22,456 nt of DNA, taken from positions 1 through 22,456 of IMG/VR virus record IMGVR_UViG_3300010160_000248, one strand, 5' to 3'. Shown one piece after another: positions 6,092 through 21,823 of the stretch; the first letter of the stretch is position 1, and each line of letters starts with the position of its first letter. The notes beneath the pieces were generated by a model that saw only the letters and a program-made list of their open reading frames with translations, was not told the DNA's origin and did no database searches. The DNA is from a virus. Position numbers and translations under genes: made by a program.

Positions 6092-9000
6092 ATGCCCATT
6101 ACTATTCGATTTCCAGCGCCCGGCTTTCCTTTAGGCAAACAGATTATTACACCTCTTTCCAATTTTAGTGGTCGAGGCTTTGATGGCGGCTCATTTAAAA
6201 ACATTTTAATTAACAGTGAAAATCAAGGGTCATCTACCTGGATCATTAATACGGGCACTGTTGTTGCCCCTTTAGCAGATGGCACCACAGTAGTAACCTA
6301 TGCTCCAAAAATTAACAATGCTACATCTTGGTATCAAGAGTATTCAATAACATCAGACGCACTATCTACTGAACTTGTTAACCACGGAGCATTACCTGTA
6401 ATTACCGGCGTTCCATTTGTTGGGCAATTGCTAACTGTTACAACGGGTACTTGGTACGGAGATAGTATCAGTTTTAGCTATCAATGGCAACGAGGCACAG
6501 TTAATATAGATGGTGCAACTAGTAGCACTTATTACGTAGATCCAGCAGATGAAAAATTCAAATTAAGATGTTTGGTAATTGCTACTAGTGGCGCAGAAAG
6601 TACAATTAGTAAAAGTACCAGCACAGCCGTTATTGCTGGCGCCCCGTTAGACACATCACCTCCTGTATTGAGTGGAACACAGTCAATTGGATCTACACTG
6701 AGTGTAACTACAGGCACATGGACTGCTGATACTGCACTTACATTTACATATCAATGGTATAGGACCAATGTTGCTATAACAACGTCAACAGCTAGCACTT
6801 ATGTGATTCAAAGTATTGATGCAGGATATATATTAAATTGTACAGTAAGAGCCACTAATACACGTGGTGCATATCATACAACTTCGTCAAACTATACTGG
6901 AATCATCTCAGGTCCTCCTATTAATACGTTTGCTCCAATTGTATCTGGTTCTTTTGTATTAGGTAGCACACTATCAATATATGATGGTTTATGGGTTGGG
7001 TACCCAACCCCTGCATTTACCTACCAATGGCAACGAGGAACTACTGATATTGCAGGTGCTACTGCTTCTACTTATGTCTCAGTAATAGGCGACGTAGCAT
7101 CTACGATTAGAGCAAGAGTAACTGCTACCAATGGACTAGGAAGTAGTAGCACTTTTTCAAATTCAACTCTGGAAATTTCTACAGTACCTGCAAATACTGT
7201 GGCTCCAGTAACCACTGGAAATATATACGTAGGACAGACATTATCTGTTACCACTGGCACATGGACGGGATATCCTGCACCTACCTATGCATATCAGTGG
7301 AAACGTATTTCGGCAACAGCAATATCAGTATCAGGAGCGGCAGCATTCACTACTCCTGGAACATATACTTGGACCTGCCCAGCGGGTGTTACTAGTGTAA
7401 ATGTAGTATGTGTTGGTGCAGGAGGAGGAGGCGGCCTTAGTGGCGGCCTTAGTGGCGGTGGAGGAGGCGGTTTAGCATGGGGAAATAATATCCCAGTGAC
7501 ATCTGGTACAGTCTATACTGTTGTAGTTGGCCAAGGCTCTTTCAATGCGCCCGGCGGCACTAGCTATTTTAGCAATACTAATGTAATTTCTGCACTTGGT
7601 GGCAGCACTGGTACCGTCACGGGTGGCGGCCAGCAACCCGCTGGCGGCACCTATTTTGTGGCTGCTTCTATTACTTCTCAAGGTGGTGGCAACGGCGGAA
7701 TTGGTGGCGCGGCAGCTGGGCAAGGTCAACCTGGACCAGGCGCAGGTGGTGGTGCCGGCGGATATACAGGTAATGGAGGAGCAGGCGGTGGCGCCTTCTT
7801 GTCTGACCAAGACGGTTCTCCTGGTACTGGTGGTGGTGGTGGTGGTGGTGGCCGCGCTTATGGAAACGGCAACGGAGCCGGTGGTGGCGGTGGCGTTGGT
7901 ATATTTGGGCAAACGAGCAACGGTGCTGGTGGTATTGGATCAACTACTACAAATGGTGGAGGCGGCGCAGGCAACCCAGTCGGCGGCGGCAATGGTGGTG
8001 CGGGAGGCCTGTTTGCCCTAGGCGCTGGCGGTCCTGGCGGGCGTGGCGGTACTGCCTTTGGTGGCGGTGGTGGCGGCCTAGGCGGCACGGCGATATCTGG
8101 TACTAGTTCAGGTGCTGGTGGTGGTGGTGGTGGCTTTGGTGGCGGAGGCGGTAATGGATACGATAACGGCTCCACCCCTAGTACTCGAGGTCAAGGTGGT
8201 GCAGGCAGTGGAGGGGCTGTACGTATTATATGGAGCAATGCAGGTCAGATCCGTGCATTCCCTAGTACCAACGTAGATGCGGCATATGACAATGTCACCT
8301 ACTCTACTACTTATCTACCCTTTATGTCTACTTTGTCTAATGTCTCAGTTGTTAGTGGAGTAGGTGCAATTTCAGGAGCCAATTCATCATCATATCTATT
8401 GATTCCAAGTGATTACAATTGTGGCATATCATGTACAGTAACTGGAAATAACCAAGCCGGGTCATCTAGTGCTGATTCTAACACCCTGGGAAATACTTCA
8501 ACTGGAATTGGGTTGATTACACAGCCGGCACAATATCTAACACAACCTGTTGTTTCTGGAACACCAACACGTGGACAAACTCTGTCAGTTAACACAGGCA
8601 CATGGAGTACTAACGTTAACTTAGTCTACGCATATCAATGGTATCGTAGTGGAACTGCAATTTCAACAGGTACTGCCAGTACATATATATTAGCAGATGT
8701 TGACCTTGGACTGACAATGACAGCGAGTGTTGCGGCAACTAATATTGCAGGCACAACAACAGCCACATCATCTAACAGTCTTGGACCAGTGGTTGGAATT
8801 CCTGTTAATACAGTACTACCTGTAATTTCTGGAACTAATCTAGTAGGACAAACATTATCTGTTACTGATGGAACTTGGACAGCATATCCTTCAATTACAT
8901 ATTCATATCAGTGGAAGCGTGGAGGAACTCCTATCAGTTTAGCCACTAGCAATACATACCTATTAGTTTCTGCAGATGCAACTTATACTATCACTTGTAC

Positions 9001-10720
9001 AGTAACAGCTACAAACAGTCAAGGATCTACTCCTGTAACAACCAACGCAACTAGTTCAATTAATGAAACAGTTTCAAATACCGCAGTACCAACAGTATCT
9101 GGATTACTGTATGTAGGTCAGACACTGGCTACTACTACTGGAACATGGATTGGAACACCTGGTCCTACATACACATTCCAGTGGCAGCGAGTAACCACAC
9201 CTATAGCTGGCGCTACATCAAGCTCGTATGTTCTAACAACAGATGATGTAGGATATACTTTACGTTCCTCAGTGACTGCTACTAACGTGGTAAATTCTGC
9301 TACTGCATATTCTGTACAAACTGGCTCAGTTAGTGGACTGCCTTATGTTTCAGTTCAACCGCTTATCACCGCTGGAACATCTCCGTACATACCTGGTGTG
9401 GTGTTAACTGTTAACACTGGAACTTTCTTAGGTGCCACACCTATTACAGTAACCCAACAATGGTATAGAGTTGCAACTACAGGCACAGTGGCCATTGCAG
9501 GTCAGACTAGTTTAACATATACAGTAACCAGCGATGATATTGGAATGAGTATTCAGACAAGATCTACAGCTACTAACTCTTATGGCAGTACTTCTACTAC
9601 ATCATCTAACTCGATATTAATACCCCCAGTGATACCAACAAATGCAATGATTATGTACAACGGTACAGATCCGGGACTGGCAGGTTGGAGCAGATACTCC
9701 ACTGCTGACGGTTTAGTTATAAAAGGTGCCAGTGTACAGGGAGATATTGGTGTTACAACAGCAGCCGCAGGAACTTATAGTGCGGCTTATACAGTAGGTC
9801 TAGCTGGGTTACACAATGGTCCAGGAAACTATTATTTCTTCGGTGGTAATACTCCAGGATCTGCATCCTACGGTCCACAATCGAACAGTGCAGGAGATCA
9901 CAGTCACACTTTCTCACTGACAGGTTCTGCGGCTCCGGCTAAACCTCCAAGAACACAACACACCTTGCTGTATGCTACCACTGATCAATATCAATTTCCA
10001 ACTAACACCATACATATTCACGCAAATAATGCTGGAGGTAGTTGGACACAAAAGATAGCATCGGGCGCCATCCGATTTATTGTTGGCGGAAACGGTGTCA
10101 GTGACTTGGCCGCAGTCGCTGCCACAAACAACAGTGCTTCATCAAGTAGTGATGGATTCCACGATCACATTGCAGGATCACCAACTCGAATTTCAAGTAG
10201 TACGCCAGCTGGCCCTAACTCGGCTACACCCGGTTCTGCTACAGGACAAGTGCATAGTCATAGCGCATCAGCTGGAACTGTACCGATGACTGTGTCATCT
10301 ATTGCAGGAAAATTAATGAAGTTGTGGACAGCCGCAAGTCAAGATACAGCATTTAATGGTCATGTTGTAATGTTTGTTGGTACATTAACTGCATTGCCAC
10401 CGTACTGGAAACTATGTGATGGCACAAATGGAACACCAGATCTAAGAACATACAGTTTAGGATATTCAACAGCGTCTACTGATCATAATGTGGCCACTGC
10501 CCTTACTGCTCAAAGTGCATCACTTACTCTGTCACTAGGCAGTTGGACTCACACCCATGCTGGCAACGCAGGCGCTACCCCGTCAAGTACTCAATCAGCA
10601 CCGCACGGAAGCACTAACGTTGGCAGCCACAACCACACACTTGCAGCCGTAACTGCTCCGCTATCAGGATATGATCCAGGATCAATTAAAGTTGCGTTTA
10701 TACAATACGTAGCACCATAA
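6092..10720 (+). CDS. Giant tail fibre: Ig-like repeats, nested Gly-rich module, Tail Collar tip
   Basis: 1542 aa. Residues about 34-85 ('NILINSENQGSSTWIINTG...SWYQEYSI') resemble the first half of a lectin-like jelly-roll domain common on phage fibres. Eight Ig-like domains of about 90 aa follow (starts near residues 98, 185, 275, 365, 816, 903, 995, 1083), each with 'GQTLSVTTGTW', 'YQWxR' and 'TSSTYxLxxxDxG...VTATN'. Domain 4 is split: after 'YQWKRISATAISV' comes a glycine-rich module (about 416-716, 'FTTPGTYTWTCPAGV' to 'GAVRIIWS'), and the Ig fold resumes at about 745. Residues 1183-1542 form a tip with two collar-like units, 'AMIMYNGTDPGLAGWSRYS' and 'LCDGTNGTPDLR' (about 1441, Tail Collar signature). 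Six His-x-His motifs lie at H1270, H1308, H1357, H1388, H1487 and H1513; in T4 gp37 such motifs coordinate iron in the tip needle. Inferred role: host-receptor-binding fibre, with the next gene as its chaperone. Confidence 0.85.
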   Translation: MPITIRFPAPGFPLGKQIITPLSNFSGRGFDGGSFKNILINSENQGSSTWIINTGTVVAPLADGTTVVTYAPKINNATSWYQEYSITSDALSTELVNHGALPVITGVPFVGQLLTVTTGTWYGDSISFSYQWQRGTVNIDGATSSTYYVDPADEKFKLRCLVIATSGAESTISKSTSTAVIAGAPLDTSPPVLSGTQSIGSTLSVTTGTWTADTALTFTYQWYRTNVAITTSTASTYVIQSIDAGYILNCTVRATNTRGAYHTTSSNYTGIISGPPINTFAPIVSGSFVLGSTLSIYDGLWVGYPTPAFTYQWQRGTTDIAGATASTYVSVIGDVASTIRARVTATNGLGSSSTFSNSTLEISTVPANTVAPVTTGNIYVGQTLSVTTGTWTGYPAPTYAYQWKRISATAISVSGAAAFTTPGTYTWTCPAGVTSVNVVCVGAGGGGGLSGGLSGGGGGGLAWGNNIPVTSGTVYTVVVGQGSFNAPGGTSYFSNTNVISALGGSTGTVTGGGQQPAGGTYFVAASITSQGGGNGGIGGAAAGQGQPGPGAGGGAGGYTGNGGAGGGAFLSDQDGSPGTGGGGGGGGRAYGNGNGAGGGGGVGIFGQTSNGAGGIGSTTTNGGGGAGNPVGGGNGGAGGLFALGAGGPGGRGGTAFGGGGGGLGGTAISGTSSGAGGGGGGFGGGGGNGYDNGSTPSTRGQGGAGSGGAVRIIWSNAGQIRAFPSTNVDAAYDNVTYSTTYLPFMSTLSNVSVVSGVGAISGANSSSYLLIPSDYNCGISCTVTGNNQAGSSSADSNTLGNTSTGIGLITQPAQYLTQPVVSGTPTRGQTLSVNTGTWSTNVNLVYAYQWYRSGTAISTGTASTYILADVDLGLTMTASVAATNIAGTTTATSSNSLGPVVGIPVNTVLPVISGTNLVGQTLSVTDGTWTAYPSITYSYQWKRGGTPISLATSNTYLLVSADATYTITCTVTATNSQGSTPVTTNATSSINETVSNTAVPTVSGLLYVGQTLATTTGTWIGTPGPTYTFQWQRVTTPIAGATSSSYVLTTDDVGYTLRSSVTATNVVNSATAYSVQTGSVSGLPYVSVQPLITAGTSPYIPGVVLTVNTGTFLGATPITVTQQWYRVATTGTVAIAGQTSLTYTVTSDDIGMSIQTRSTATNSYGSTSTTSSNSILIPPVIPTNAMIMYNGTDPGLAGWSRYSTADGLVIKGASVQGDIGVTTAAAGTYSAAYTVGLAGLHNGPGNYYFFGGNTPGSASYGPQSNSAGDHSHTFSLTGSAAPAKPPRTQHTLLYATTDQYQFPTNTIHIHANNAGGSWTQKIASGAIRFIVGGNGVSDLAAVAATNNSASSSSDGFHDHIAGSPTRISSSTPAGPNSATPGSATGQVHSHSASAGTVPMTVSSIAGKLMKLWTAASQDTAFNGHVVMFVGTLTALPPYWKLCDGTNGTPDLRTYSLGYSTASTDHNVATALTAQSASLTLSLGSWTHTHAGNAGATPSSTQSAPHGSTNVGSHNHTLAAVTAPLSGYDPGSIKVAFIQYVAP
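6383..9637 (+). repeat. Eight Ig-like domain repeats in the fibre gene
   Basis: About 270-nt units each encode one Ig-like domain. They are recognised by the recurring 'GQTLSVTTGTW', 'YQWKR/YQWQR/YQWYR' and 'VTATN' blocks. The fourth unit is interrupted by the glycine-rich module. The copies differ substantially from one another, so this is an old expansion, unlike the near-identical repeats in the 2156-aa gene downstream. Confidence 0.85.
7346..8241 (+). repeat. Glycine-rich module nested in Ig domain 4
   Basis: About 300 codons dominated by GGT/GGC glycine. The module starts with 'FTTPGTYTWTCPAGVTSVN' and ends with 'GAVRIIWS', the same boundaries as the module in the 2156-aa gene. It includes pure (GGT)7 at 7829-7849 and (GGT)5 at 8117-8131, both slippage-prone. 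The strand is strongly G-over-C and locally richer in GC than its surroundings. Long proline-rich frames on the opposite strand are by-products of this composition. Confidence 0.85.
9638..10717 (+). other. Fibre tip region: tandem collar units with six HxH motifs
   Basis: This region encodes residues 1183-1542 of the fibre. It shows two related units, each with a 'GT..L..W' entry ('MIMYNGTDPGLAGWSRYS' and 'VMFVGTLTALPPYWKLCDG') followed by His-rich strands. The motifs are HSH, HIH, HDH, HSH, HTH and HNH. Family knowledge: Tail Collar domains and the T4 gp37 receptor-binding needle share this His-x-His metal-site pattern. Confidence 0.75.
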
Positions 10721-10733
10721 CAAGGAAATAAAA

Positions 10734-11243
10734 ATGGATTACACATATTTTACTTTAAATGTATATAACAACCATGCTTCTATTACAAAGAATGGAGAAG
10801 GTTATATTTTTTCTAGCGTTGACAAATTCGTTGAACGTACAAATTTTCCATATATAGAACAGGCAAAAATGATACACCACGAAGGTTTTAGAAACAATTG
10901 GGTTGTCGAAAGAACGGGCGGCGAGATTGTTTCTGGCCCAGACTTAGAAGAAATAGTTTGGATAACTAATTACATGGAGTTCATTTGGAACCATGCTCTC
11001 AAAGACAAGGAAGAACAAGAAGCATTGTCTGCACCACCGTTAAGTGCTCTGCGTAATTTTAAATTATATGAAACAGACTGGATATTGCAACGTCATCAAG
11101 AAGAAACAATGTTAAACTTAGCACACAAATTTACAGAACAACAGATAACCGCAGTGCTTATCTATAGACAACAATTAAGAGATATGAACTTATCTGGGTT
11201 AAATGAAAAAAACGTAGTTTGGCCAACTAACCCAATAGCATAA
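10734..11243 (+). CDS. Tail fibre assembly chaperone-like protein
   Basis: 169 aa, with a clear SD (AAGGA at 10722-10726, 7 nt before ATG) and 13 nt after the fibre stop. The C-terminal half carries the pattern of the phage tail assembly chaperone family (Phage_tail_APC type): 'YETDWILQRHQEE' (W116), 'KFTEQQ', 'YRQQLRDMN' (144-152) and a terminal 'VVWPTNP' (161-167). The N-terminal 90 residues ('YTYFTLNVYNNHASITKNG', 'VERTGGEIVSGPDLEE') are not recognised and may be phage-specific. Unlike its neighbours the protein is charged and not glycine/threonine/serine-rich, which fits a cytoplasmic assembly factor rather than a virion fibre. A chaperone gene directly after a collar-tipped fibre gene is the standard arrangement. 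It most likely helps fold or trimerise that tip, and perhaps the 2156-aa protein whose ATG follows 4 nt after its stop. Confidence 0.75.
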   Translation: MDYTYFTLNVYNNHASITKNGEGYIFSSVDKFVERTNFPYIEQAKMIHHEGFRNNWVVERTGGEIVSGPDLEEIVWITNYMEFIWNHALKDKEEQEALSAPPLSALRNFKLYETDWILQRHQEETMLNLAHKFTEQQITAVLIYRQQLRDMNLSGLNEKNVVWPTNPIA

Positions 11244-11247
11244 AAAC

Positions 11248-14200
11248 ATGGTAGCTCCAGTAAATGCAGTATTCCCCGTACTATCAGAAACGGCAACTGT
11301 TTCTGCTAATACTCAGTACGTGTTCAGTTTCTATGCCAAGAAAGGAACAGCAGGTAATGTTACCTGCGGAATATATGATAATACCAATGGAGCAAACATT
11401 GTTAACCCAGTTAGCTATGTATCATTGCTCAGTGATACTACTCTAGTTAGAATTAGCCTAGCATTTACTACACCTGCAAATTGCACCTCAGTTTCTGTAT
11501 TCCCGGTATGGTATGGTACAGACTACGGATCAGTTACTGTCTATGGTATGCAATTAGAAGTTGCAACAATAACTCCGAGTTTACCTACACTATTAACTGA
11601 GTCTGGGGATACATTAATTGCAGAGTCTAGCACAGTGCTAACCGGTGAGGTAGTAGAAGATATAGCCACTCCCTATCAACTAACCCTAAGCACATCGTTG
11701 GCCGCACAAGGATACACTCCGCAGGCCACTGACTATTCATTGGTTAATAAAGTCAAGGCTATAGATATTTTAAAATCTTCTGAGATCGTAGTTCCTGTTG
11801 CTAGACTTAGATCTGTTGGCTCACTACGAAGTTACAATAATTCAACTTCTACGTTGGTAATATCTAAATTACGTAACAGTAGTATAGCCAAAGATACACC
11901 ATCTGCAAAGTTTAACAATACATCGTCGATGGTTAATAAATTAATTACACCGGCAAACAAAACACAGACAATTTCTCTGACTACATCAAATGTAGTATAC
12001 CCAACTCCTTTTCAAAATTCACCTAACGCAGGTGATTTTAAATTTGGCGTAACAGCACAAACACCTAGATCAATTACTACATCTTCCTCGTCATTACTGC
12101 AATGGTATTTAGAATACGGATCTCAAAGTGATCTATTAACTACAGCAACTTCAACTACTACTAATCTAACAATTAAAACGTTTTATTTTACACCTAGTGC
12201 ATATACTCCGTTTGCAGTAGGATCATCGATTAAAGTTAGTAATACAAATGGCAGTGCATATACTGCCACAGTAATCGCCACTGATTTTAGTTCAGTGACT
12301 ATTGCCATGCCTGCTGTAGAATTCCCAAGCGTTGGCACATTTGTTGAATCAAGTGCTACCGTTTACTCTAAATTGCTAGTTGCTCCAACAAATCGAGGAT
12401 CGAGACTGGCCAGAGATAGATTATATTATAACGATATGGGTCCTGGTATAAAGGGATTCTTACCTGAAAGAACAAACGTAGGATTGTTATCTTTATCTAC
12501 AACTACAGGGCAGTTAACCAAAGCCATTGAAGTTATTAAGGATTTAACAAATAATGTTCGTCTTGGACAACTACAAAAATCAATTGAAGTCATCCGCCAA
12601 GTTAGTACTACAACATTTACAGTTAGTAAAGTTAACGCGGCAGTAGTAGTTCGAGCAGTTCCTGCTATACTTTCGTCAAATCTTGGTACTCCTATAATTA
12701 AAAAATATTCATTGCCACCGGTATCTTTTATTAATTTTAATATATCTACTAGAGTAGCCAAGGTATCTGCGGCCGCAGTATTAAGAGCAGATACTTCTAA
12801 GTTACGGGTAGATAAACTTAGTACTGTAAACGTACTAAAGGGCATACCTTCAACTACTTCAACACCTATTGTTAGTAAATTTAAAACAATAAGTGGAATC
12901 GTTGCGGCAATTAATACTACAGTACTGTCTCCGACACCATTCCAAAATACACCCAACCCTGGTGATTTTAAAATGTTTGTTGTCGGGCAAAGTCCAGATG
13001 CAACAACTACATCGACATCATCTTTATTGCAATGGTATCTAGAATACAGCGCCAATTCAGATGTATTGTCTATTTCAACAGCTACATATACTACATCATC
13101 GGTTAAAACTTTTTACTTTGGTCCAACTGGTTATAATCCATATTCTGTAGGTTCAATAATTAAAATTGGAAATATTTATGGATCAAGTTATACAGCTACA
13201 GTAGTGTCGTCTAGTATTGGTTCAGTGACTATTGCAATGCCAAGATTGGCATTACCTAGTGTTGGAACTTATATTGAAACAAGTGCCACAGTTTATTCTC
13301 AGTTATTGGTAGCACCTACAAATAGAAGTTCTGGACTGGCTAGAGATAGGTTATATTACAATAACATGGGACCGGGCATAAAGGGATATTTAGACGGCCG
13401 TTCAAATATAGCGCAGGTATCTTTACCTACAACTACAGGACAGTTAGCAAAAGCATTTGAAGTTGTTAAATCTTTAACAAATAATTTTCTCATAGGACAA
13501 TTACAAAAACCATTTGAAATTATCAAAGCAACATTGTCAAGGATAGATGTAGCTAAACTCAATTCGGCAGCAATAGTACGTGGCGAAAATAATAGATTTA
13601 ATCCTAGTATTATTTCTAAATTTAAACCGCCTATTGGTCAAGTATTTGTAGTGCGACCAACTGTTACCCAATTACAAAAAGCATTTGAAGTTGTCAAAGG
13701 ATCTCTATTAAAAATAGATGTAGCTAAACTTAATGCTATGAATGTTGTACGTGGTGATAGAACTAGAATTTTAGCTTACCAAGTTGAAAAACAAAAAGTT
13801 CCAGCAACCAATGTAGGACTGTTTAGATTACCGCTTGTGACTGGTCAATTATCTAAGGCATTTGAAATTGTTCGTGCAGATCAATCAGTAATTAAAGTAG
13901 ATAAAGTTTCTTCAGTTGCAGTATTAAAAGCTGAGCCAAGCAAATTAAGAACGGATAAACTTAATACCGTCAATGTCATACGAGCTATTCCTTCAATAAT
14001 TAGAATATCTAATATTGAGAAAATTAAGAGACCTATTGAAGGCCCGACATTCTCGTTGGCTCCTAATATATTGTTCCCAACACCGTTCCAGAATACACCT
14101 AATCCAGGTGATTTCAAATTTGGTGTAACAGCACAAACACCTAGATCAATTACTACTTCAACAACATCTTTGTTGCAGTGGTACTTAGAATATGGATCTC

Positions 14201-17200
14201 AAAGTGATCTATTAACTACAGCAACTTCGACTACTACTAATTTAACAGTTAAAACTTTTTATTTTACACCTAGTGCATATACTCCGTACTCGGTAGGGTC
14301 TTCAATTAAAGTTAGCAACACAAATGGCAGTGCATATACTGCCACAGTGCTTGCCACAGATTTTAGATCAGTGACTATTGCCATGCCTGCTGTAGAATTT
14401 CCAAGTGGCTATACTTTTGGCATTAGTAGACCAGAATCCACTACTCTCTCGTTTGGTCAAGCAACCTTTACCACTCCGGGTGCTACTACATGGACTTGCC
14501 CACCAGGTGTTTTCAGTATAAGTCTAGTAGCCGTTGGTGGCGGTGGTGGCGGTGGATATGGTCAAGTTGGTATTGGCGGCGGCGGCGGCGCACTTGTCTG
14601 GGTCAATGATATCCCAGTAATTCCCGGAAGAGTTTATAATTTAAATGTCGGCGCGGGCGGCGTAATCGCCACCAACGGCGGAGATAGTTGGTTTAATAAC
14701 AGTAATTATATTAAGGCAGGCGGTGGCGGTGGCGGTGCAGGTGGCTCTAATAATATAGCACTTGCTTCCAGCGCGGGCGGTATTCCTGTAAATAATTCAG
14801 GTGCTCCCGGCGGTGGCGGTAGCGGTGGTTTCGCGCACGCTGGCAGCACGCCCGGCGCCACCTACTCCGGCGGCGGCGGTGGCGGTGCAGGTGGGTATTC
14901 GACTTTGTTTACGAACCGTGGTGGCGATGGATCGTATCCAACCGGTGGTGTCGGTGGTAATTTTGGAAGTGCAAGCGGACCGCTACCCGCAGGCAGTGGT
15001 GGCGGTGGAGGCGGTGCCTCGGCGCTTTGGCAGAACGGCCGTGCTGGTGGCGCCGGCGGCGGAGTGGGCTTACTTGGTATAGGTGCAGACGGTGTGGGCT
15101 TTACTGATAACGCCGGCACTGGTGGCACAGGTGGATCTGGTGGTGGATCTGGTGGTAGTTATCTTGCACCAACGGGTGGTCTGTATGGCGGTGGCGGTGG
15201 CGGCGGAACAACAAATAGTACTGGTCCAGGATTTACTCCTGGATTAGGTGGTGCTGGAGCAGTACGCATAATATGGAGCACAGGCAGATCGTTCCCATCG
15301 ACATTTACAGCAGATCTGCCAACTACAACCGGCACTACTACCCCTGCTACCATTGGTACAGATATTGGCACATTTATTGAATCAAGTGCTACTGTATATT
15401 CTCAGTTATTGGTAGCACCTACAAATAGAGGCTCTGGTCTAGCTAGAGATAGATTGTATTACAATAACATGAGTCCTGGTATACAGGGGTACTTAGCTGA
15501 ACGTTCAAATGTAGCTCAAGTATCTTTATCTACAAGTACAGGACAGTTAACTAAAGCATTTGAAATTGTCAAAGGATCTCTATTAAAAATAGATGTAGCT
15601 AAACTTAATGCGGCAGCAATAGTACGTGGTGATAGAACTAGAATTTTAGCTTACCAAGTTGAAAAACAAAAAGTACCAGCAACTGGGGTAGGTTTGTTTA
15701 GATTACCGCTTGTGACTGGTCAATTATCTAAAGCATTTGAAGTAGTTAAGGATACACGTACTACGTTGGTATATAGTCAATTATCTAAGGCATTTGAAAT
15801 TGTTCGTGCAGATCAATCAGTAATTAAAGTAGATAAACTTACTACAGCTAATGTACTACGAGGTATTAAAACAGTATCTACATCAGTATCTATAGTTACA
15901 CAGGTAAAGATGCCTGTGACACGGTATGTGTTCTCTATTGCTAATTCTGTTACTAACCAAGTTGCCAAATTAACAAGCGCCGCAATAGTTCGAGATACAC
16001 AAAGCAAACTAACATACAGTCAATTACAAAAAGCATTTGAAACTATACGTAGTGTTAATGTTAACGCTATTGCAGGCAATATTTTTAAAGTCAAGCAACC
16101 TTTATCACCACCGTTTGTATTTTCAATTGCTGGTACATATACCAATCAAGTTGCTAAGTTAACAGCAGCCGCAGTGGTTAGAGAAGCTAGAGTAAGATTA
16201 ACAGTGGATAAACTTACCACTACTAACGTACTGCGAGGTATTAAAACAGTATCTACGTCAGTATCTATAATTACACAGGTAAAGATGCCCGTGACACGTT
16301 ATGTGTTTTCAATGGCTAATACATATACCAATCAAGTTGCTAAGTTAACCGCAGCCTCTGTTTTGCGAGAAGCACGTTCAATTTCTACTGTAACAAATAG
16401 ATTAGAATCTACAATTAATACAACTACATTTATATATACACAATCGACAGTAGCGCCTGCAGGATCACCTAAAACTTCTAGGGAAGCACTGTATTATTTC
16501 TATCTAGCACCTGACTATCGTGCAGATCATTATCAAAGGCTTACAAATTATCCTACAGTGGGCGTATACAATACACCGGTTCAAAGTGGACGAGTGAATG
16601 CTGTTAATGTATTGAAAGGTGTTACAAATAATATTCAAGTTGCTCGATTAAAAGCAATAAATGTGCTTAGAGATGCTAATACTAGAATAGATATTTTTGG
16701 AAGACTTGAGAGGAGGATACTATTAGAAGCTAATAGAATAGCATTCTTGTATACTGCCGCATCAACAAGTACCACTGATATCAGTAGGCTGGAACAGTTC
16801 AATGTTGGATCTTATCCCGGTGATTTTAAATTACAGATCGTGGGGCAAAATGCAGATTACGATAACAATCTTATTTCCTGGTATTTAAATGATAATGACG
16901 TATTAACTCCGTCAGTTAAATCGACCAGTACCACTAGGACAGTATACTTTAACCAAACATTGTATACACCATTCTCAGTTGGTACTAGAATTAAGTTAAC
17001 TAGTTCTGGTAGCAATAGTATTTTATATTATGCAACTGTAACCTCAGTTACTAGCAACTCTGTGTCTTTTGTTAAGCCAAGCATTGATATATCTATTTTT
17101 AATACCTACATTGAAGGTGGTAGTTCGGTATATCCACGTAGTTTTGTAAGCCCTACTACTGCACCAAAAAATGCTCGTGAAAATTTGTATTTCTTTGAGT

Positions 17201-17718
17201 TAGCGCCTGCTATTCGAGATGCTAACAAGTATCAAAATACATTAGTTAACCGAGCTACAGCTCAAGCAGTATCAGCCTATACAGTTACTAATAGATTAGA
17301 ATCTACAATTAACACCAGCACGTTTATATATGCACAATCTTTAGTAAATCCTGCATACCCAACGTTCCCGCAATCATCTAGGGAAGTTTTATACTATTTC
17401 TATCTAGCTCCTAGCTTACGTGCAGATTATTGGCAACGCTTGACTAATCGGATAACTATTGGGCCAGAACAACAAAGATTATCGCAAGGCCTTCTTAGCC
17501 CATTAAAAGTTGGTAAAGATAGCATACAAGATTTTAGATTAGCACCTAGTCAAGGTAATTTATCCAAAGCATTTGAAATTGTTAAAGATGTGTTTAACAC
17601 ATTTAAACTGCCATATGCACAGGTTATACGCTTAAAAACTGGTGACGGTAAAAATGGCCAGCGCGGCGTACAAGACCCTACTTTTAGGAAAAAAGCGCCA
17701 ATACAATTTTGGAACTAA
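11248..17718 (+). CDS. Giant repetitive virion protein with 160-aa modules and short-repeat arrays
   Basis: 2156 aa. The ATG is the first available start (in-frame TAG at 11236-11238), 4 nt after the chaperone stop and without an SD, so coupled translation is likely. Residues about 14-108 ('SANTQYVFSFYAKKGT', 'VRISLAFTTPANCTSV', 'VYGMQLE') are the second half of a lectin-like jelly-roll domain whose first strands are missing. A 160-aa module 'PTPFQNxPNxGDFK...GPGIKGxLxxRxN' occurs complete at 12001-12480 and 12931-13410. A third copy is split (14077-14406 and 15364-15513) by a glycine-rich insert. Diverged relatives sit near 16800-17230, 16390-16560 and 17280-17460. Between them lie about 29 copies of a roughly 19-aa unit such as 'VAKLNAAAIVRGDRT' or 'GQLSKAFEIVRADQS'. 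The C-terminus is basic. I do not recognise the 160-aa module or the short repeat. Inferred role: large adhesin or fibre on the virion. Confidence 0.75.
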   Translation: MVAPVNAVFPVLSETATVSANTQYVFSFYAKKGTAGNVTCGIYDNTNGANIVNPVSYVSLLSDTTLVRISLAFTTPANCTSVSVFPVWYGTDYGSVTVYGMQLEVATITPSLPTLLTESGDTLIAESSTVLTGEVVEDIATPYQLTLSTSLAAQGYTPQATDYSLVNKVKAIDILKSSEIVVPVARLRSVGSLRSYNNSTSTLVISKLRNSSIAKDTPSAKFNNTSSMVNKLITPANKTQTISLTTSNVVYPTPFQNSPNAGDFKFGVTAQTPRSITTSSSSLLQWYLEYGSQSDLLTTATSTTTNLTIKTFYFTPSAYTPFAVGSSIKVSNTNGSAYTATVIATDFSSVTIAMPAVEFPSVGTFVESSATVYSKLLVAPTNRGSRLARDRLYYNDMGPGIKGFLPERTNVGLLSLSTTTGQLTKAIEVIKDLTNNVRLGQLQKSIEVIRQVSTTTFTVSKVNAAVVVRAVPAILSSNLGTPIIKKYSLPPVSFINFNISTRVAKVSAAAVLRADTSKLRVDKLSTVNVLKGIPSTTSTPIVSKFKTISGIVAAINTTVLSPTPFQNTPNPGDFKMFVVGQSPDATTTSTSSLLQWYLEYSANSDVLSISTATYTTSSVKTFYFGPTGYNPYSVGSIIKIGNIYGSSYTATVVSSSIGSVTIAMPRLALPSVGTYIETSATVYSQLLVAPTNRSSGLARDRLYYNNMGPGIKGYLDGRSNIAQVSLPTTTGQLAKAFEVVKSLTNNFLIGQLQKPFEIIKATLSRIDVAKLNSAAIVRGENNRFNPSIISKFKPPIGQVFVVRPTVTQLQKAFEVVKGSLLKIDVAKLNAMNVVRGDRTRILAYQVEKQKVPATNVGLFRLPLVTGQLSKAFEIVRADQSVIKVDKVSSVAVLKAEPSKLRTDKLNTVNVIRAIPSIIRISNIEKIKRPIEGPTFSLAPNILFPTPFQNTPNPGDFKFGVTAQTPRSITTSTTSLLQWYLEYGSQSDLLTTATSTTTNLTVKTFYFTPSAYTPYSVGSSIKVSNTNGSAYTATVLATDFRSVTIAMPAVEFPSGYTFGISRPESTTLSFGQATFTTPGATTWTCPPGVFSISLVAVGGGGGGGYGQVGIGGGGGALVWVNDIPVIPGRVYNLNVGAGGVIATNGGDSWFNNSNYIKAGGGGGGAGGSNNIALASSAGGIPVNNSGAPGGGGSGGFAHAGSTPGATYSGGGGGGAGGYSTLFTNRGGDGSYPTGGVGGNFGSASGPLPAGSGGGGGGASALWQNGRAGGAGGGVGLLGIGADGVGFTDNAGTGGTGGSGGGSGGSYLAPTGGLYGGGGGGGTTNSTGPGFTPGLGGAGAVRIIWSTGRSFPSTFTADLPTTTGTTTPATIGTDIGTFIESSATVYSQLLVAPTNRGSGLARDRLYYNNMSPGIQGYLAERSNVAQVSLSTSTGQLTKAFEIVKGSLLKIDVAKLNAAAIVRGDRTRILAYQVEKQKVPATGVGLFRLPLVTGQLSKAFEVVKDTRTTLVYSQLSKAFEIVRADQSVIKVDKLTTANVLRGIKTVSTSVSIVTQVKMPVTRYVFSIANSVTNQVAKLTSAAIVRDTQSKLTYSQLQKAFETIRSVNVNAIAGNIFKVKQPLSPPFVFSIAGTYTNQVAKLTAAAVVREARVRLTVDKLTTTNVLRGIKTVSTSVSIITQVKMPVTRYVFSMANTYTNQVAKLTAASVLREARSISTVTNRLESTINTTTFIYTQSTVAPAGSPKTSREALYYFYLAPDYRADHYQRLTNYPTVGVYNTPVQSGRVNAVNVLKGVTNNIQVARLKAINVLRDANTRIDIFGRLERRILLEANRIAFLYTAASTSTTDISRLEQFNVGSYPGDFKLQIVGQNADYDNNLISWYLNDNDVLTPSVKSTSTTRTVYFNQTLYTPFSVGTRIKLTSSGSNSILYYATVTSVTSNSVSFVKPSIDISIFNTYIEGGSSVYPRSFVSPTTAPKNARENLYFFELAPAIRDANKYQNTLVNRATAQAVSAYTVTNRLESTINTSTFIYAQSLVNPAYPTFPQSSREVLYYFYLAPSLRADYWQRLTNRITIGPEQQRLSQGLLSPLKVGKDSIQDFRLAPSQGNLSKAFEIVKDVFNTFKLPYAQVIRLKTGDGKNGQRGVQDPTFRKKAPIQFWN
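12001..12480 (+). repeat. 160-aa module, copy 1 (complete)
   Basis: 480 nt from 'PTPFQNSPNAGDFKF' to 'GIKGFLPERTN'. At nt level it is close to copy 3: an exact 35-nt match, 12118-12152 with 14194-14228, lies in a longer near-identical stretch. Confidence 0.85.
12931..13410 (+). repeat. 160-aa module, copy 2 (complete)
   Basis: 480 nt, the same length as copy 1, from 'PTPFQNTPNPGDFKM' to 'GIKGYLDGRSN'. It is more diverged in its first two thirds ('VVGQSPDATTTS', 'SANSDVLSIST') but its end ('LLVAPTNRSSGLARDRLYY') is almost the same as in the other copies. Confidence 0.85.
13693..13905 (+). repeat. Short-repeat block A (exact duplicate segments in block B)
   Basis: The block holds four segments identical to block B: 13693-13735 (43 nt), 13747-13799 (53 nt), 13821-13856 (36 nt) and 13844-13905 (62 nt, overlapping the third). 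It encodes 'SLLKIDVAKLNAMNVVRGD' to 'SKAFEIVRADQSVIKVDK'. Confidence 0.9.
14077..15513 (+). repeat. 160-aa module, copy 3, split by glycine-rich insert
   Basis: The first part (14077-14406, 330 nt) ends in '..PAVEFPS' and the second (15364-15513, 150 nt) resumes at 'IGTFIESSATVYSQLL'. Together they are 480 nt, exactly the size of copies 1 and 2. The intervening 957 nt (319 codons) hold the glycine-rich module and its linkers. Confidence 0.85.
14407..15363 (+). repeat. Glycine-rich insert (319 codons) inside module copy 3
   Basis: It contains a linker ('GYTFGISRPESTTLSFGQ'), the glycine-rich module from 'FTTPGATTWTCPPGV' to 'GAVRIIWS', and an exit linker ('GRSFPSTFTADLPTTTGTT'). The same entry and exit signatures bound the module in the 1542-aa fibre. 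GGT/GGC/GGA codons dominate and the strand is strongly G-rich. Confidence 0.85.
15568..15837 (+). repeat. Short-repeat block B, with one extra 57-nt unit
   Basis: Counterparts of block A are at 15568-15610, 15622-15674, 15696-15731 and 15776-15837. The order is the same, but one additional 57-nt (19-codon) unit, 15721-15777, is present. It begins with CAATTATCTAAAGCATTTGA, and the same 20 bases with one change recur at 15778. Confidence 0.9.
15835..16380 (+). repeat. Imperfect repeats 'VDKLTT.NVLRGIKT..' and '..TNQVAKLTAA'
   Basis: A segment encoding 'KLTTANVLRGIKTVSTSVSI' and 'TQVKMPVTRYVFS' (from about 15832) recurs from about 16204 with scattered, mostly synonymous changes. A 30-nt exact repeat covers 16134-16163 and 16320-16349 ('TYTNQVAKLT'). 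Confidence 0.85.
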
Positions 17719-18010: not shown

Positions 18011-20920
18011 ATGGCAAAACGAGTAATAGGCGAACAGTATACTTTTACGCCGGCAACAAAAACTGTTGTAATCAACGGTAAAACAATTCAGCGCGAAAGA
18101 TTAATATTAATTCTCAATGTTACACAAAACATTGTGCTTTATAATTTCTCTGACTCTGCCCTTACTGCTCAAACTTATACAATTAGTACTGCGGCCAACG
18201 TTGAAACAACCACAATTGTTTTAAACTATAATACAACATTAATGAATGCCAACGATAAGTTGAGTATTATTGTTGACGAAGTAGACGAAACATTTACACC
18301 AGCAGAATCAGTTACTGATCCGGTGGGTAAAATACGTATGAGTACCCCGCAGGCCCTAATTGACACTGACTTTGAATACGGTGTACAAAGTACCAAGTGG
18401 GAAACACTGGCTTTGACAAACCAACGTCAGAGTTCGTTTTATGATAGTACTACAGGTATTGCTGGTATTCCGAACGTAGTAACCGTAGGCGGAACAACTG
18501 GTACATATTCTATTACTAACATCACAGGTAACGGTACTAGACTAGTAACGGTTACTATGGCTAACACTACTAACATTACCACAGGTACACCTATATACAT
18601 TCAGGATAGTACAGATTCTAACGCCAACGGTTGGTACATCCCTGACACAATTACAGGTGGCACTAGCTTTACATATTATGCTAGGGCTAACGTGACCAAC
18701 GGTACTATTTTTGATCCTTATAAAACTTACTTGTTTGTTGGTTCATGGTACACAGGATCATCAATTCCTGTTGGTACCAGTGCATACAGTATTATCAGCA
18801 GTGGTGCTACATCTGTAATACAGGTAACTACAACCAACAATCACGGACTTGCCGCAGGGCAAGCTATATATGTAACCAACGTCACTGGTGCAAGTACTAA
18901 AAACCCAGTGGGTTCTTGGACAGTTAGAAGAACATTAAGCAGTCATATATTTGATTTTGAAGTACCTTTTATAGTTGGTACTGGTCCGCTGAGTAATGCC
19001 TCAAACCAAAGTTTATATCCTAGGACATGGGGTACCAGTATTCACAGGGCCTTTGACGGTGGTGTAACATTTACCGCTGGTTATCCATATCAAGGTAATC
19101 AACTAATTCGTCAAACTCGACGCTACTTCCGTTATCAGTCTGGTAAGGGTATTCAATTCTCTACAGGTTCTAACTTATGTTCACCGTTCCAAGTTGACTC
19201 GCTAACAGCCAGCGGAACTACTGTAACAGTTACAACTAAATTCCCCCATAATCTATGGATTGGCAGCTTCGTTAGAGTGTCGGGTGCTGACCAAACTGCA
19301 TATAATACCAACTCAGCACAGGTAACAAGCGTACCGTCAGATACTACATTTACCTATGTTGTGGGATCAGTACCTAGCCCTGCAACAGCAACCAGTTCAG
19401 GTGGTTACAACGTTAGTCCAGTTACTTGGTATGGTGCTAGTTTGCGTATTGGCATGTTTGATCACCAAAACGGATTCTTCTTTGAGTATGATGGACAGAA
19501 CATATTTGCATGCCGTAGATCAAGTACCAACCAGTTAGTGGGTTACATAAATTCGTTGGCCAACGGTGGGCAATACGTGCAAGGTACAAACAGTAAATGG
19601 AGTGAAACACTTATTCCCGGTGATATGATTGTCATCCGTGGCATGAGCTATGAAGTTGTCAGTGTTGAAAGTAACACTTCGATGACCATTTATCCTGATT
19701 ATCGTGGACCTACTATCAGTGCTCCTCAACAGGTTATTGTCAGTAAAACAGTGGATACGAAGATTCCTCAGACTGCATGGAATATTGACAGAATGGACGG
19801 CTCAGGTGTTAGTTCATATACTGTAGACATTACAAAAATGCAGATGTGGTATATTGACTATAGCTGGTACGGTGCAGGTGCAATCCGTTGGGGATTCAAA
19901 GATCAACGTGGTGCTGTTAGATACTGTCACAGATTGGCACACGCCAACAACCAAAGTGAAGCGTATATGCGTTCTGGTAACTTGCCAGCACGTTATGAAG
20001 TTAACACACTATATCCTAAGACCGTAGCTATTAACACTATTACCAGCGGTGAAGTAAGTACAATCTCTGTTAGAGATAATTCACAATTCCCCGGTACAGG
20101 TACTATTGTAGTATCAGCGCCGGGTAATATTGGTGCAAACATTGAGTACATTAACTATGGTAGCAAGGGTAACAACACATTTGGTAACTTGACTCGTGCT
20201 GTACAAGGATTACCAGGACCAGGCGGCCTAACTAACCTAGGTGGTACAGGTACTGCGGCAACATTCTCATACAGCAGTACATCATGTATTGGTATAGCCT
20301 ATTGGGGTCCACAAGCCGCATGTACTATCAGTCACTGGGGTTCATCAGTGATCATGGATGGACGCTATGATGACGATAAATCATTCTTGTTCAACTATGG
20401 TTTACAAAGTCCAGTAACTTACACCAATGCCGGTCAGCGTTATCCGGTGTTCAGTATTCGACTAGCACCTAGCGTTGATAGTGGTCTTGTTGGACAGTTG
20501 GGACAACGTGAAATTATTAACAGGATGCAGTTAACACCTGCTGGTGCAGGTGTATATCCAACTGGCGCAGGTGTTAAAGTTGAAATCTGGTTAAACGCTA
20601 GAACTAGCGTAGGTACGTGGACTCCAATTGGCGGATCAAGTCTTGCACAATTTGCTACGCATGGCGCTTCTGGTACAATAACTGGTGGTGAGTGTATCTA
20701 TACGTTCTTTGCACCATCAGGCGGCGTTAGCACACAGGACATTTCAAAAGTTCGAGATATTGGTAACAGTATTTTAGGCGGTGGAACTACTAGTACTATA
20801 TCTAGCACCAGCACAAACATGTATCCAGATGGTCCAGACGTTATTACCATTGCGGTAACACCGTTGGCAAGTAACGCGGCTACTGTAGCTCGTTTAAGCT
20901 GGACAGAAGCTCAGGCTTAA
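18011..20920 (+). CDS. Conserved T4-like marine phage virion structural protein (969 aa)
   Basis: SD AGGA at 17999-18002, 8 nt before ATG. The N-terminus ('TFTPATKTVVINGKTIQRER') leads into a beta domain. At residues about 114-150 comes 'ALIDTDFEYGVQSTKWETL' and '..SSFYDST', a signature I associate with large virion proteins of T4-like cyanophages and relatives. Residues 150-470 contain repeated transition modules ('RLVTVTMANTTNITTGTPI', 'TTNNHGLAAGQAIYV', 'VTTKFPHNLWIGSFVRVSG'). Around residues 594-650 is the conserved 'KMQMWYIDYSWYGAGAIRWG' with 'AYMRSGNLPARYE'. One copy of the 'GT.SKW...L.PGDMIVIRG' module links it to the 1279-aa protein. The C-terminus ends 'LSWTEAQA'. There is no enzyme motif. 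It is probably a baseplate- or fibre-associated surface protein; its exact position in the virion is not inferable here. Confidence 0.8.
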   Translation: MAKRVIGEQYTFTPATKTVVINGKTIQRERLILILNVTQNIVLYNFSDSALTAQTYTISTAANVETTTIVLNYNTTLMNANDKLSIIVDEVDETFTPAESVTDPVGKIRMSTPQALIDTDFEYGVQSTKWETLALTNQRQSSFYDSTTGIAGIPNVVTVGGTTGTYSITNITGNGTRLVTVTMANTTNITTGTPIYIQDSTDSNANGWYIPDTITGGTSFTYYARANVTNGTIFDPYKTYLFVGSWYTGSSIPVGTSAYSIISSGATSVIQVTTTNNHGLAAGQAIYVTNVTGASTKNPVGSWTVRRTLSSHIFDFEVPFIVGTGPLSNASNQSLYPRTWGTSIHRAFDGGVTFTAGYPYQGNQLIRQTRRYFRYQSGKGIQFSTGSNLCSPFQVDSLTASGTTVTVTTKFPHNLWIGSFVRVSGADQTAYNTNSAQVTSVPSDTTFTYVVGSVPSPATATSSGGYNVSPVTWYGASLRIGMFDHQNGFFFEYDGQNIFACRRSSTNQLVGYINSLANGGQYVQGTNSKWSETLIPGDMIVIRGMSYEVVSVESNTSMTIYPDYRGPTISAPQQVIVSKTVDTKIPQTAWNIDRMDGSGVSSYTVDITKMQMWYIDYSWYGAGAIRWGFKDQRGAVRYCHRLAHANNQSEAYMRSGNLPARYEVNTLYPKTVAINTITSGEVSTISVRDNSQFPGTGTIVVSAPGNIGANIEYINYGSKGNNTFGNLTRAVQGLPGPGGLTNLGGTGTAATFSYSSTSCIGIAYWGPQAACTISHWGSSVIMDGRYDDDKSFLFNYGLQSPVTYTNAGQRYPVFSIRLAPSVDSGLVGQLGQREIINRMQLTPAGAGVYPTGAGVKVEIWLNARTSVGTWTPIGGSSLAQFATHGASGTITGGECIYTFFAPSGGVSTQDISKVRDIGNSILGGGTTSTISSTSTNMYPDGPDVITIAVTPLASNAATVARLSWTEAQA

Positions 20921-20996: not shown

Positions 20997-21392
20997 ATGG
21001 CCACGACCAGTACAAAAATCTCCGAGTTAATAACCCTGTCAACAATGACAGATATTGCTTTCTTGCCTGTGGTAGAAGGCCTGGCCACTAAGCGCATCAC
21101 AGGCTTAAATCTTAAGAATTATTTCACCTCAGGCGCCGTAACTTCTACCAGTGTACTAGTAACTGGCGAAGTAACTTCACTGTCTACTAACACAGGATCT
21201 CTACAAGTTAGGGGCGGAGCAGGTCTTAGCGGAAACTTATATGTCGGCGGTACTCTAATTATTGCCGCAGGTAATGCACCGGCAACAGCAAGTTCAACAG
21301 GAACAGCAGGGCAAGTAGTATACGATAGTGGATTTATATACGTTTGTGTAGCAACTAATACTTGGAAACGTAGTGCATTGACTACTTGGTAA
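20997..21392 (+). CDS. Small fibre-like virion protein (131 aa)
   Basis: AAGG at 20987-20990 lies 6 nt before ATG. After an N-terminal segment ('MATTSTKISELITLSTMTDI', 'FLPVVEGLATKRITGLNLK') comes the unit 'TNTGSLQVRGGAGLSGNLYV', which is common on phage fibre shafts. The C-terminal 'GTAGQVVYDSGFIYVCVATN' and 'WKRSALTTW' is another end motif seen on many marine phage structural proteins. At 131 residues it is much shorter than the other fibres here, so it looks like a minimal fibre: an attachment end, one shaft unit and a cap. It is preceded by the perfect late promoter and followed, with an 18-nt gap, by the metallopeptidase-like gene. Its virion location is unknown. Confidence 0.7.
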   Translation: MATTSTKISELITLSTMTDIAFLPVVEGLATKRITGLNLKNYFTSGAVTSTSVLVTGEVTSLSTNTGSLQVRGGAGLSGNLYVGGTLIIAAGNAPATASSTGTAGQVVYDSGFIYVCVATNTWKRSALTTW

Positions 21393-21396
21393 TAAC

Positions 21397-21404
21397 GGTA
21401 AATA
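21397..21404 (+). promoter_or_regulatory. Candidate late promoter (GGTAAATA), possibly leaderless start
   Basis: GGTAAATA is 5 nt before the ATG at 21410, the same geometry as at 6079-6092. No SD precedes that ATG. A T4-type -10 element here would place the transcript start at the start codon. Confidence 0.45.
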
Positions 21405-21409
21405 CCAGT

Positions 21410-21823
21410 ATGCGAGCCAATCAATTTTTTACAGAAGAAAACAAAGATCAAGACACTGTTGTAGAGATGTTTAAGTTATTTTTCCCCTTGGCCATGGAAG
21501 TATTGGGCATAGATAGATTACCTAAAATGCATTTTGAGCCATTGATAGATACAGGTCATCAACCCAGTTTTGGCATGTATAAAACTGATGACCAAACATT
21601 GTATGTTGCCCTACTATATAGACATCCAGTAGATGTGCTAAGAACAGTGGCACATGAATTAGTACACTTTAGACAAGATCTACGTGACGAATTGAATGAT
21701 CAAAGTGGTGCTACAGGCAGTCCTGAAGAAAATCAAGCACATGAGATTGCCGGCGTAATTATGCGTCATTTTAACAAAAAATACCCGCAATTCCTTAGTA
21801 GTAAGCCAATAATGCCAAATTAA
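21410..21823 (+). CDS. Putative zinc metallopeptidase-like protein (HExxH)
   Basis: I place the start at ATG 21410 (137 aa, 'MRANQFFTEEN'). A TTG at 21386 would overlap the previous gene and add eight residues with no support; 'MRxxxFxxE' is a common opening among marine T4-like phage proteins. The core is 'VLRTVAHELVHFRQDLRDEL', with HELVH at residues 82-86 (two zinc-binding His plus catalytic Glu). Downstream 'EENQAHEIAGVIMRHF' could supply the third ligand (E107, ExxA pattern). This arrangement matches small gluzincin-type peptidases, and near-identical patterns ('LRTLAHE.VH..Q', 'IMR.FN..YP') recur in T4-like cyanophages, where the function is not established. It is cytoplasmic by sequence, without signal or membrane segments. 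Co-expression with late genes would fit a role in virion maturation or release, but no substrate can be inferred. Confidence 0.75.
   Translation: MRANQFFTEENKDQDTVVEMFKLFFPLAMEVLGIDRLPKMHFEPLIDTGHQPSFGMYKTDDQTLYVALLYRHPVDVLRTVAHELVHFRQDLRDELNDQSGATGSPEENQAHEIAGVIMRHFNKKYPQFLSSKPIMPN

Follow-up and report, generated by a model that had tools for sequence, protein, structure and literature searches.

It is well known that phages exchange fibre tips as modules at the ends of fibres. In cyanophage Pam3, host recognition was proposed for the TNF-like and glycine-rich part of gp24, and the chaperone gp25 helps this part to fold (PMC9608196). In Salmonella phage S16, glycine-rich helices of gp38 serve as the receptor-binding tip, a polyglycine sandwich formed from two beta-helix loops (PMC6851490). 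The glycine-rich domain considered here (Gly_rich_2, hereafter Gly domain) is already known, and so is domain insertion as a principle.

The locus analysed here resembles Pam3 in that its Gly domain has the same predicted fold as gp24 over ~190-200 residues (7ypx and 7yfw; Z 17.5-18.3, 28-29% identity), and a gene that may encode a fibre assembly chaperone stands nearby. However, in Pam3 the domain forms the distal tip of a trimeric short fibre, whereas here it is internal, within a repeat of a 2156-aa protein (P3). In S16, too, a glycine-rich receptor-binding tip is grafted onto another fold, but the element inserted here is predicted to be an entire TNF-like domain, base included, and not a set of beta-helix loops. 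S16 gp38 had no sequence match to the insert; it was also absent from the fold matches listed, which says nothing for or against a shared fold. We consider it fairly probable that a self-contained fibre-tip domain was copied in frame into a loop of a small barrel in P3, giving a side-facing receptor-binding surface.

Gene setting

The window, that is, the whole stretch of DNA analysed, is IMG/VR virus record IMGVR_UViG_3300010160_000248 (22,456 nt) from an uncultured tailed phage, and it contains a block of virion-type genes:

6092-10720, + strand: P2, a 1542-aa fibre-like protein with Ig-like repeats
10734-11243, + strand: chaperone-like gene (tail-fibre assembly), between the two Gly_rich_2 proteins P2 and P3
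11248-17718, + strand: P3, a 2156-aa virion-type repeat protein bearing the insert
18011-20920, + strand: 969-aa virion structural protein, ~43% identical to Kyanoviridae (cyanophage) structural proteins and used as a syntenic marker

The chaperone-like gene matched phrog_8716 (E 3e-11) and reached 26.0 bits against PF16778, just below the cut-off of 26.6. The C-terminus of P3 (...KKAPIQFWN) was common to syntenic homologues. A short ORF at 21386-21823 gave a weak metalloprotease-like match (phrog_87, E 0.0097). In three related loci (L091, L094 and L096), the N-terminal start of P2 (MPxxFPAPG, 6092-6280) and the P3 body, starting at its CBM_4_9-like part, formed a single gene. In the window, this ancestral gene seems to have received the chaperone gene and the Ig-repeat fibre part of P2 as an internal insertion.

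Module copies in P3

The repeated module that carries the insert occurred in P3 as follows:

12004-12480, + strand: module copy 1 (barrel and C-half), uninterrupted
12934-13410, + strand: module copy 2, uninterrupted
14080-14406, + strand: left part of module copy 3, in which the barrel runs to ...SVTIAMPAVEFPS
14407-15363, + strand: in-frame insert of 319 codons (linker, Gly_rich_2 domain, tail, linker)
15364-15513, + strand: right part of module copy 3, with the C-half after the last barrel strand IGTFIES
~16795-17283, + strand: module copy 4, degenerate, uninterrupted, 30-33% identical to copy 1

The first-pass annotation had described three copies of a single 160-aa domain, the third of them split in frame by the insert without loss of module sequence. 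The copies at 12004, 12934 and 14080 were recovered, with the degenerate fourth copy in addition. However, the "160-aa domain" is two separable units, a small beta-barrel and a short C-half that also occurs alone (in P3 at aa 1719 and 2019). The coordinates given for the insert were right. The left parts, from TPFQN to FPS, were 327 nt long in each of copies 1, 2 and 3; in copy 3, exactly 957 nt lay between FPS and the resumption of the module at IGTFIESS, and no module codon was lost.

Both flanks of the insert had been called close to copy 1. This was true of the left part (nucleotide identity of 87.5% to copy 1 and 65.4% to copy 2), but on the right it applied to only ~26 nt, after which the sequence became copy-2-like. 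Informative sites in copy 3 sided with copy 1 and copy 2 in a ratio of 89:17 left of the insert and 19:33 right of it (Fisher p = 4e-9). The best switch point between the two lay 26 nt past the insert and was reached in none of 5000 permutations; the right part was copy-1-like to ~15390 and copy-2-like from ~15399. By these sites, copy 3 is a chimera (mosaic) of copy-1-like and copy-2-like sequence. The switch fell ~26 nt past the insert and was therefore near the border of barrel and C-half, not at the insert itself. Its placement after the last barrel strand suggests that the barrel around the insert behaved as one unit, and the pattern fits recombination of the barrel as one unit with a copy-2-type C-half, either before or after the barrel was filled.

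Identity and origin of the insert

Within the insert, three features were delimited:

14455-15276, + strand: folded Gly domain, first to last predicted strand (ATFTT ... VRIIWS), matching the Pam3 gp24 tip
15286-15318, + strand: tail RSFPSTFTADL
15319-15363, + strand: 15-residue linker PTTTGTTTPATIGTD

The insert is glycine-rich, as first annotated, but it is more than a glycine stretch. It matched Pfam PF21722 (Gly_rich_2; E 2e-6) and phrog_4474 (E 9e-37), and both profiles were covered over most of their length. The PF21722 score was 28.3 bits in P3 and 33.5 bits in a six-frame search, above the curated cut-off of 24.3. The PF21722 strands around the glycine-rich loops were present, the first as xFTTPGxxTWTCPAG and the last as GAVRIIW (from the alignment; predicted strands 143-156 and 411-416). 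The domain lay at ~aa 1070-1343 of P3 and the carrier went on beyond it, so that it does not occupy the C-terminal distal position.

An IMG/VR scan for the Gly domain gave 79 loci with relatives, in which 105 such domains were classified. The domain was C-terminal in 59 of the 105 (<=45 residues from the protein end), typically ending in GAVRIIWGxGRxFPSTxTxDL and then a stop; in most of these C-terminal relatives the stop codon followed directly after the motif that matches the copy-3 tail. Nesting inside another domain was a minority state among the classified members. The copy-3 insert carries the tail RSFPSTFTADL at the very point where its relatives stop, and it thus appears to be a former end domain that moved inside together with its tail. 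When P3, the module or the insert was compared with the phage collection at the DNA and protein levels, no homologue emerged, and the first 110 residues of the Gly domain had a single weak match there. No useful sequence match to the insert, the module or the chaperone-like gene was obtained from the PDB.

We do not read the FPS that occurs at either side of the insert as a target-site duplication, since the right FPS is part of the tail motif of the Gly domain. At the right junction (15352-15375), the last 12 nt of the linker, ATTGGTACAGAT (IGTD), and the 12 nt that open the right part, ATTGGCACATTT (IGTF), were near-duplicates; this may be a footprint of the insertion, and chance would also fit. 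The glycine codon GGC was used for 44 of 107 glycines in the P3 insert and 47 of 126 in a second such insert in P2 (described below), vs 49 of 329 in the other window genes sampled. GC3 was raised in the two inserts, at 0.37 and 0.34, where amino-acid composition would predict 0.24.

Predicted fold of the insert

The copy-3 region was modelled by AlphaFold2 from a smaller alignment; a large alignment (A7) misplaced distant modules into the insert. The pLDDT of the Gly domain was mostly 80-98. Its model matched the Pam3 fibre structures 7ypx and 7yfw with Z of 18.3 and 17.5, respectively (Foldseek E 4e-6), followed by the Bxb1 tail tip (Z 14.4) and then the glycine-rich extracellular domain of ALK/LTK (Z ~8.5). 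The Gly domain is predicted to be a TNF-like sandwich with glycine-rich loops, like the tip of Pam3 gp24, and by analogy with this homologue it may contact the host. The domain could also be nested just as described and act as a spacer or structural filler that binds no receptor. Similar glycine-rich folds, such as that of ALK/LTK, have other roles. However, the closest folds were phage fibre and tail-tip proteins, and receptor binding at the glycine-rich tip was proposed for Pam3 gp24 (PMC9608196). We consider a mere spacer rather improbable and regard a receptor-binding tip as the likelier role.

Carrier barrel and insertion point

In the model of copy 1, five barrel strands were predicted at good confidence (72-78, 92-97, 102-111, 114-120 and 129-133), and the insertion point, after FPS, fell between the fourth and the fifth. 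PDB barrels aligned across this point with Z up to 8.7; the V-type ATPase N-terminal barrel and similar small beta-barrels aligned with the carrier over ~70 residues at 2.1-3 A. Identity was ~11%, and for so common a small barrel we take this as a fold resemblance and claim no kinship. Barrel-only copies in relatives kept the strand (SISGMYI or similar) that stands right of the insert in copy 3. Because these copies include the last strand, the insert lies by alignment within the barrel and not behind it, and its predicted site is the loop before the last barrel strand. The claim that the insert entered a loop of its carrier is thus borne out as to the point between two predicted strands, but the copy-3 model did not close the barrel: the last strand was not re-formed across the insert, and pLDDT was <50 after residue 434.

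Alternatively, and as the chief rival to this reading, the insert might lie at the seam between barrel and C-half, with GYTFGIS of the left linker as the last strand of the barrel, as a product of ordinary end-to-end domain shuffling. The C-half alone was frequent (33 matches; in P3 at aa 1719 and 2019), and in L016 a Gly domain stood directly before a C-half that lacked a barrel. Profile similarity of the left part extended into GYTF, and with no closing last strand in the copy-3 model, GYTFGIS, which is weakly like the last strand GTFVES, could close the barrel before the insert. However, GYTFGIS had a pLDDT of <50 and no predicted strand, and the barrel-only copies of relatives end with the strand found right of the insert. 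Further, just 2 of its 27 nt distinguish the IGTFIESSA stretch from copy 1, and this stretch stands before the copy-1/copy-2 switch. In L106 and L107, the Gly domain preceded a SVTIA-like strand, with left flanks that matched weakly; it is apparently inside a diverged barrel, one loop earlier than in copy 3. An insert at the seam therefore seems unlikely to us, and we retain insertion into the barrel loop.

Insertion or loss

Distant homologues were reached in steps, starting from the Gly domain and continuing from copy 4 together with L016; IMG/VR scans with module patterns had returned none, the patterns probably being too specific. The homologues typically started with MPxxxFPAPG and/or ended in PIQFWN, and many adjoined the same MATLNELG gene. 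Their unit make-up varied: L100 had mostly barrels without C-halves, L111-L114 had C-halves only, and some homologues had both. About 73 uninterrupted barrels were counted in 16 related contigs (74 in 17 loci before correction; one match in L107 was a right flank only, and L090 and L104 were one contig). In the syntenic homologue L091, where a 969-aa-type gene follows as well, the protein had no filled barrel and no Gly domain; the genome had two Gly_rich_2 domains elsewhere, in another frame. Since uninterrupted barrels are common and L091 is unfilled, insertion is favoured over loss. By the test proposed in the first-pass annotation itself, the gene comparison thus supports in-frame insertion, as had been claimed at first.

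The opposite course, in which the Gly domain was once present in all copies and then disappeared from copies 1, 2 and 4, would agree with L106, L107 and L108, where every barrel core found bears a Gly domain. However, it must account for the uninterrupted barrels, including those of syntenic homologues without a filled barrel, and for the tail of the copy-3 insert, which is typical of end domains, and exact excision would have to recur. We find such loss hardly credible. Corrected as above, the first-pass reading of a nested in-frame insertion was largely right, and we grade it as partly supported overall.

A second, shortened barrel stood directly after a first one and before the C-half in L091 (aa 1396-1605) and in L122 (aa 157-365 and 742-943). 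Barrels may have grown in tandem in these two loci, near the site of the Gly domain in the window.

Other nested Gly domains

The window holds a second nested case, in P2:

7337-8359, + strand: insert of 341 codons with Gly_rich_2, splitting an Ig-like repeat of P2 between YQWKR and ISGANSSSYLL

The P2 domain scored 37 bits against PF21722, and the joined flanks matched the other Ig repeats of P2, mostly across the junction. A generic joined-flank test gave no clear signal for either window case, probably owing to the linkers. A near relative, L093 (92% identity over 534 aa), shared the left side of the P2 insertion; its contig ended inside the Gly domain.

Such a break raises the question of an assembly chimera formed at glycine-rich repeats. 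The copy-3 insert was present in a single metagenomic contig, and no second assembly with its junction was found in IMG/VR. However, both sides were in frame with 319 codons free of stops, both flanks came from the same module and were copy-1-like at the junctions, and the left side of the P2 insertion was confirmed by L093. An artefact is very unlikely, and we treat the copy-3 insert as genuine.

Further nested cases were seen in other loci. In L067, the Gly domain interrupted a beta-propeller. In L016 (ORF from 4231, aa 480-1425), one Gly_rich_2 domain appears to lie inside a glycine loop of another, and ~340 residues that were not glycine-rich occupied a further loop of the outer domain. 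Nesting in a subtilisin-like protease (L039/L040) is only suggestive; in a BLAST check of L040, a single alignment crossed the junction, thinly. It is conceivable, though we lean slightly against it, that the Gly_rich_2 tip is a general plug-in, able to enter the surface loops of unrelated virion folds in frame, so that one virion would present receptor-binding surfaces at several places besides its fibre tips. Its targets would tentatively be the small barrel, the Ig-like repeat, the beta-propeller, another Gly domain and possibly the subtilisin-like protease.

Proposed course of events and significance

In the course that we propose, a fibre-tip domain, consisting of a TNF-like base and a bundle of glycine-rich loops, would have been copied, in frame, into the copy-3 barrel at the loop that precedes its last strand, and would have brought along its C-terminal tail FPSTxTADL. 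In TNF-like folds generally, the strand that opens the fold and the one that ends it lie side by side at the base, so the domain can sit on two short linkers and leave the carrier undisturbed. The C-half and the other barrels would have been left in place. The glycine tip would project sideways from the P3 repeats as a presumably exposed receptor-binding surface, and the product of the adjacent chaperone-like gene, which separates P2 from P3, might help the domain to fold.

In a limited literature search, we found no account of this fibre-tip domain being nested repeatedly in unrelated virion folds. A tip domain repeatedly nested inside other folds, with its old C-terminal tail as a scar, would be a readable record of the gain of a surface. 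Empty and filled sites of the same barrel both exist in related viruses, which makes the idea testable. Nested tips of this kind may show how phages add contact surfaces while keeping the old ones.
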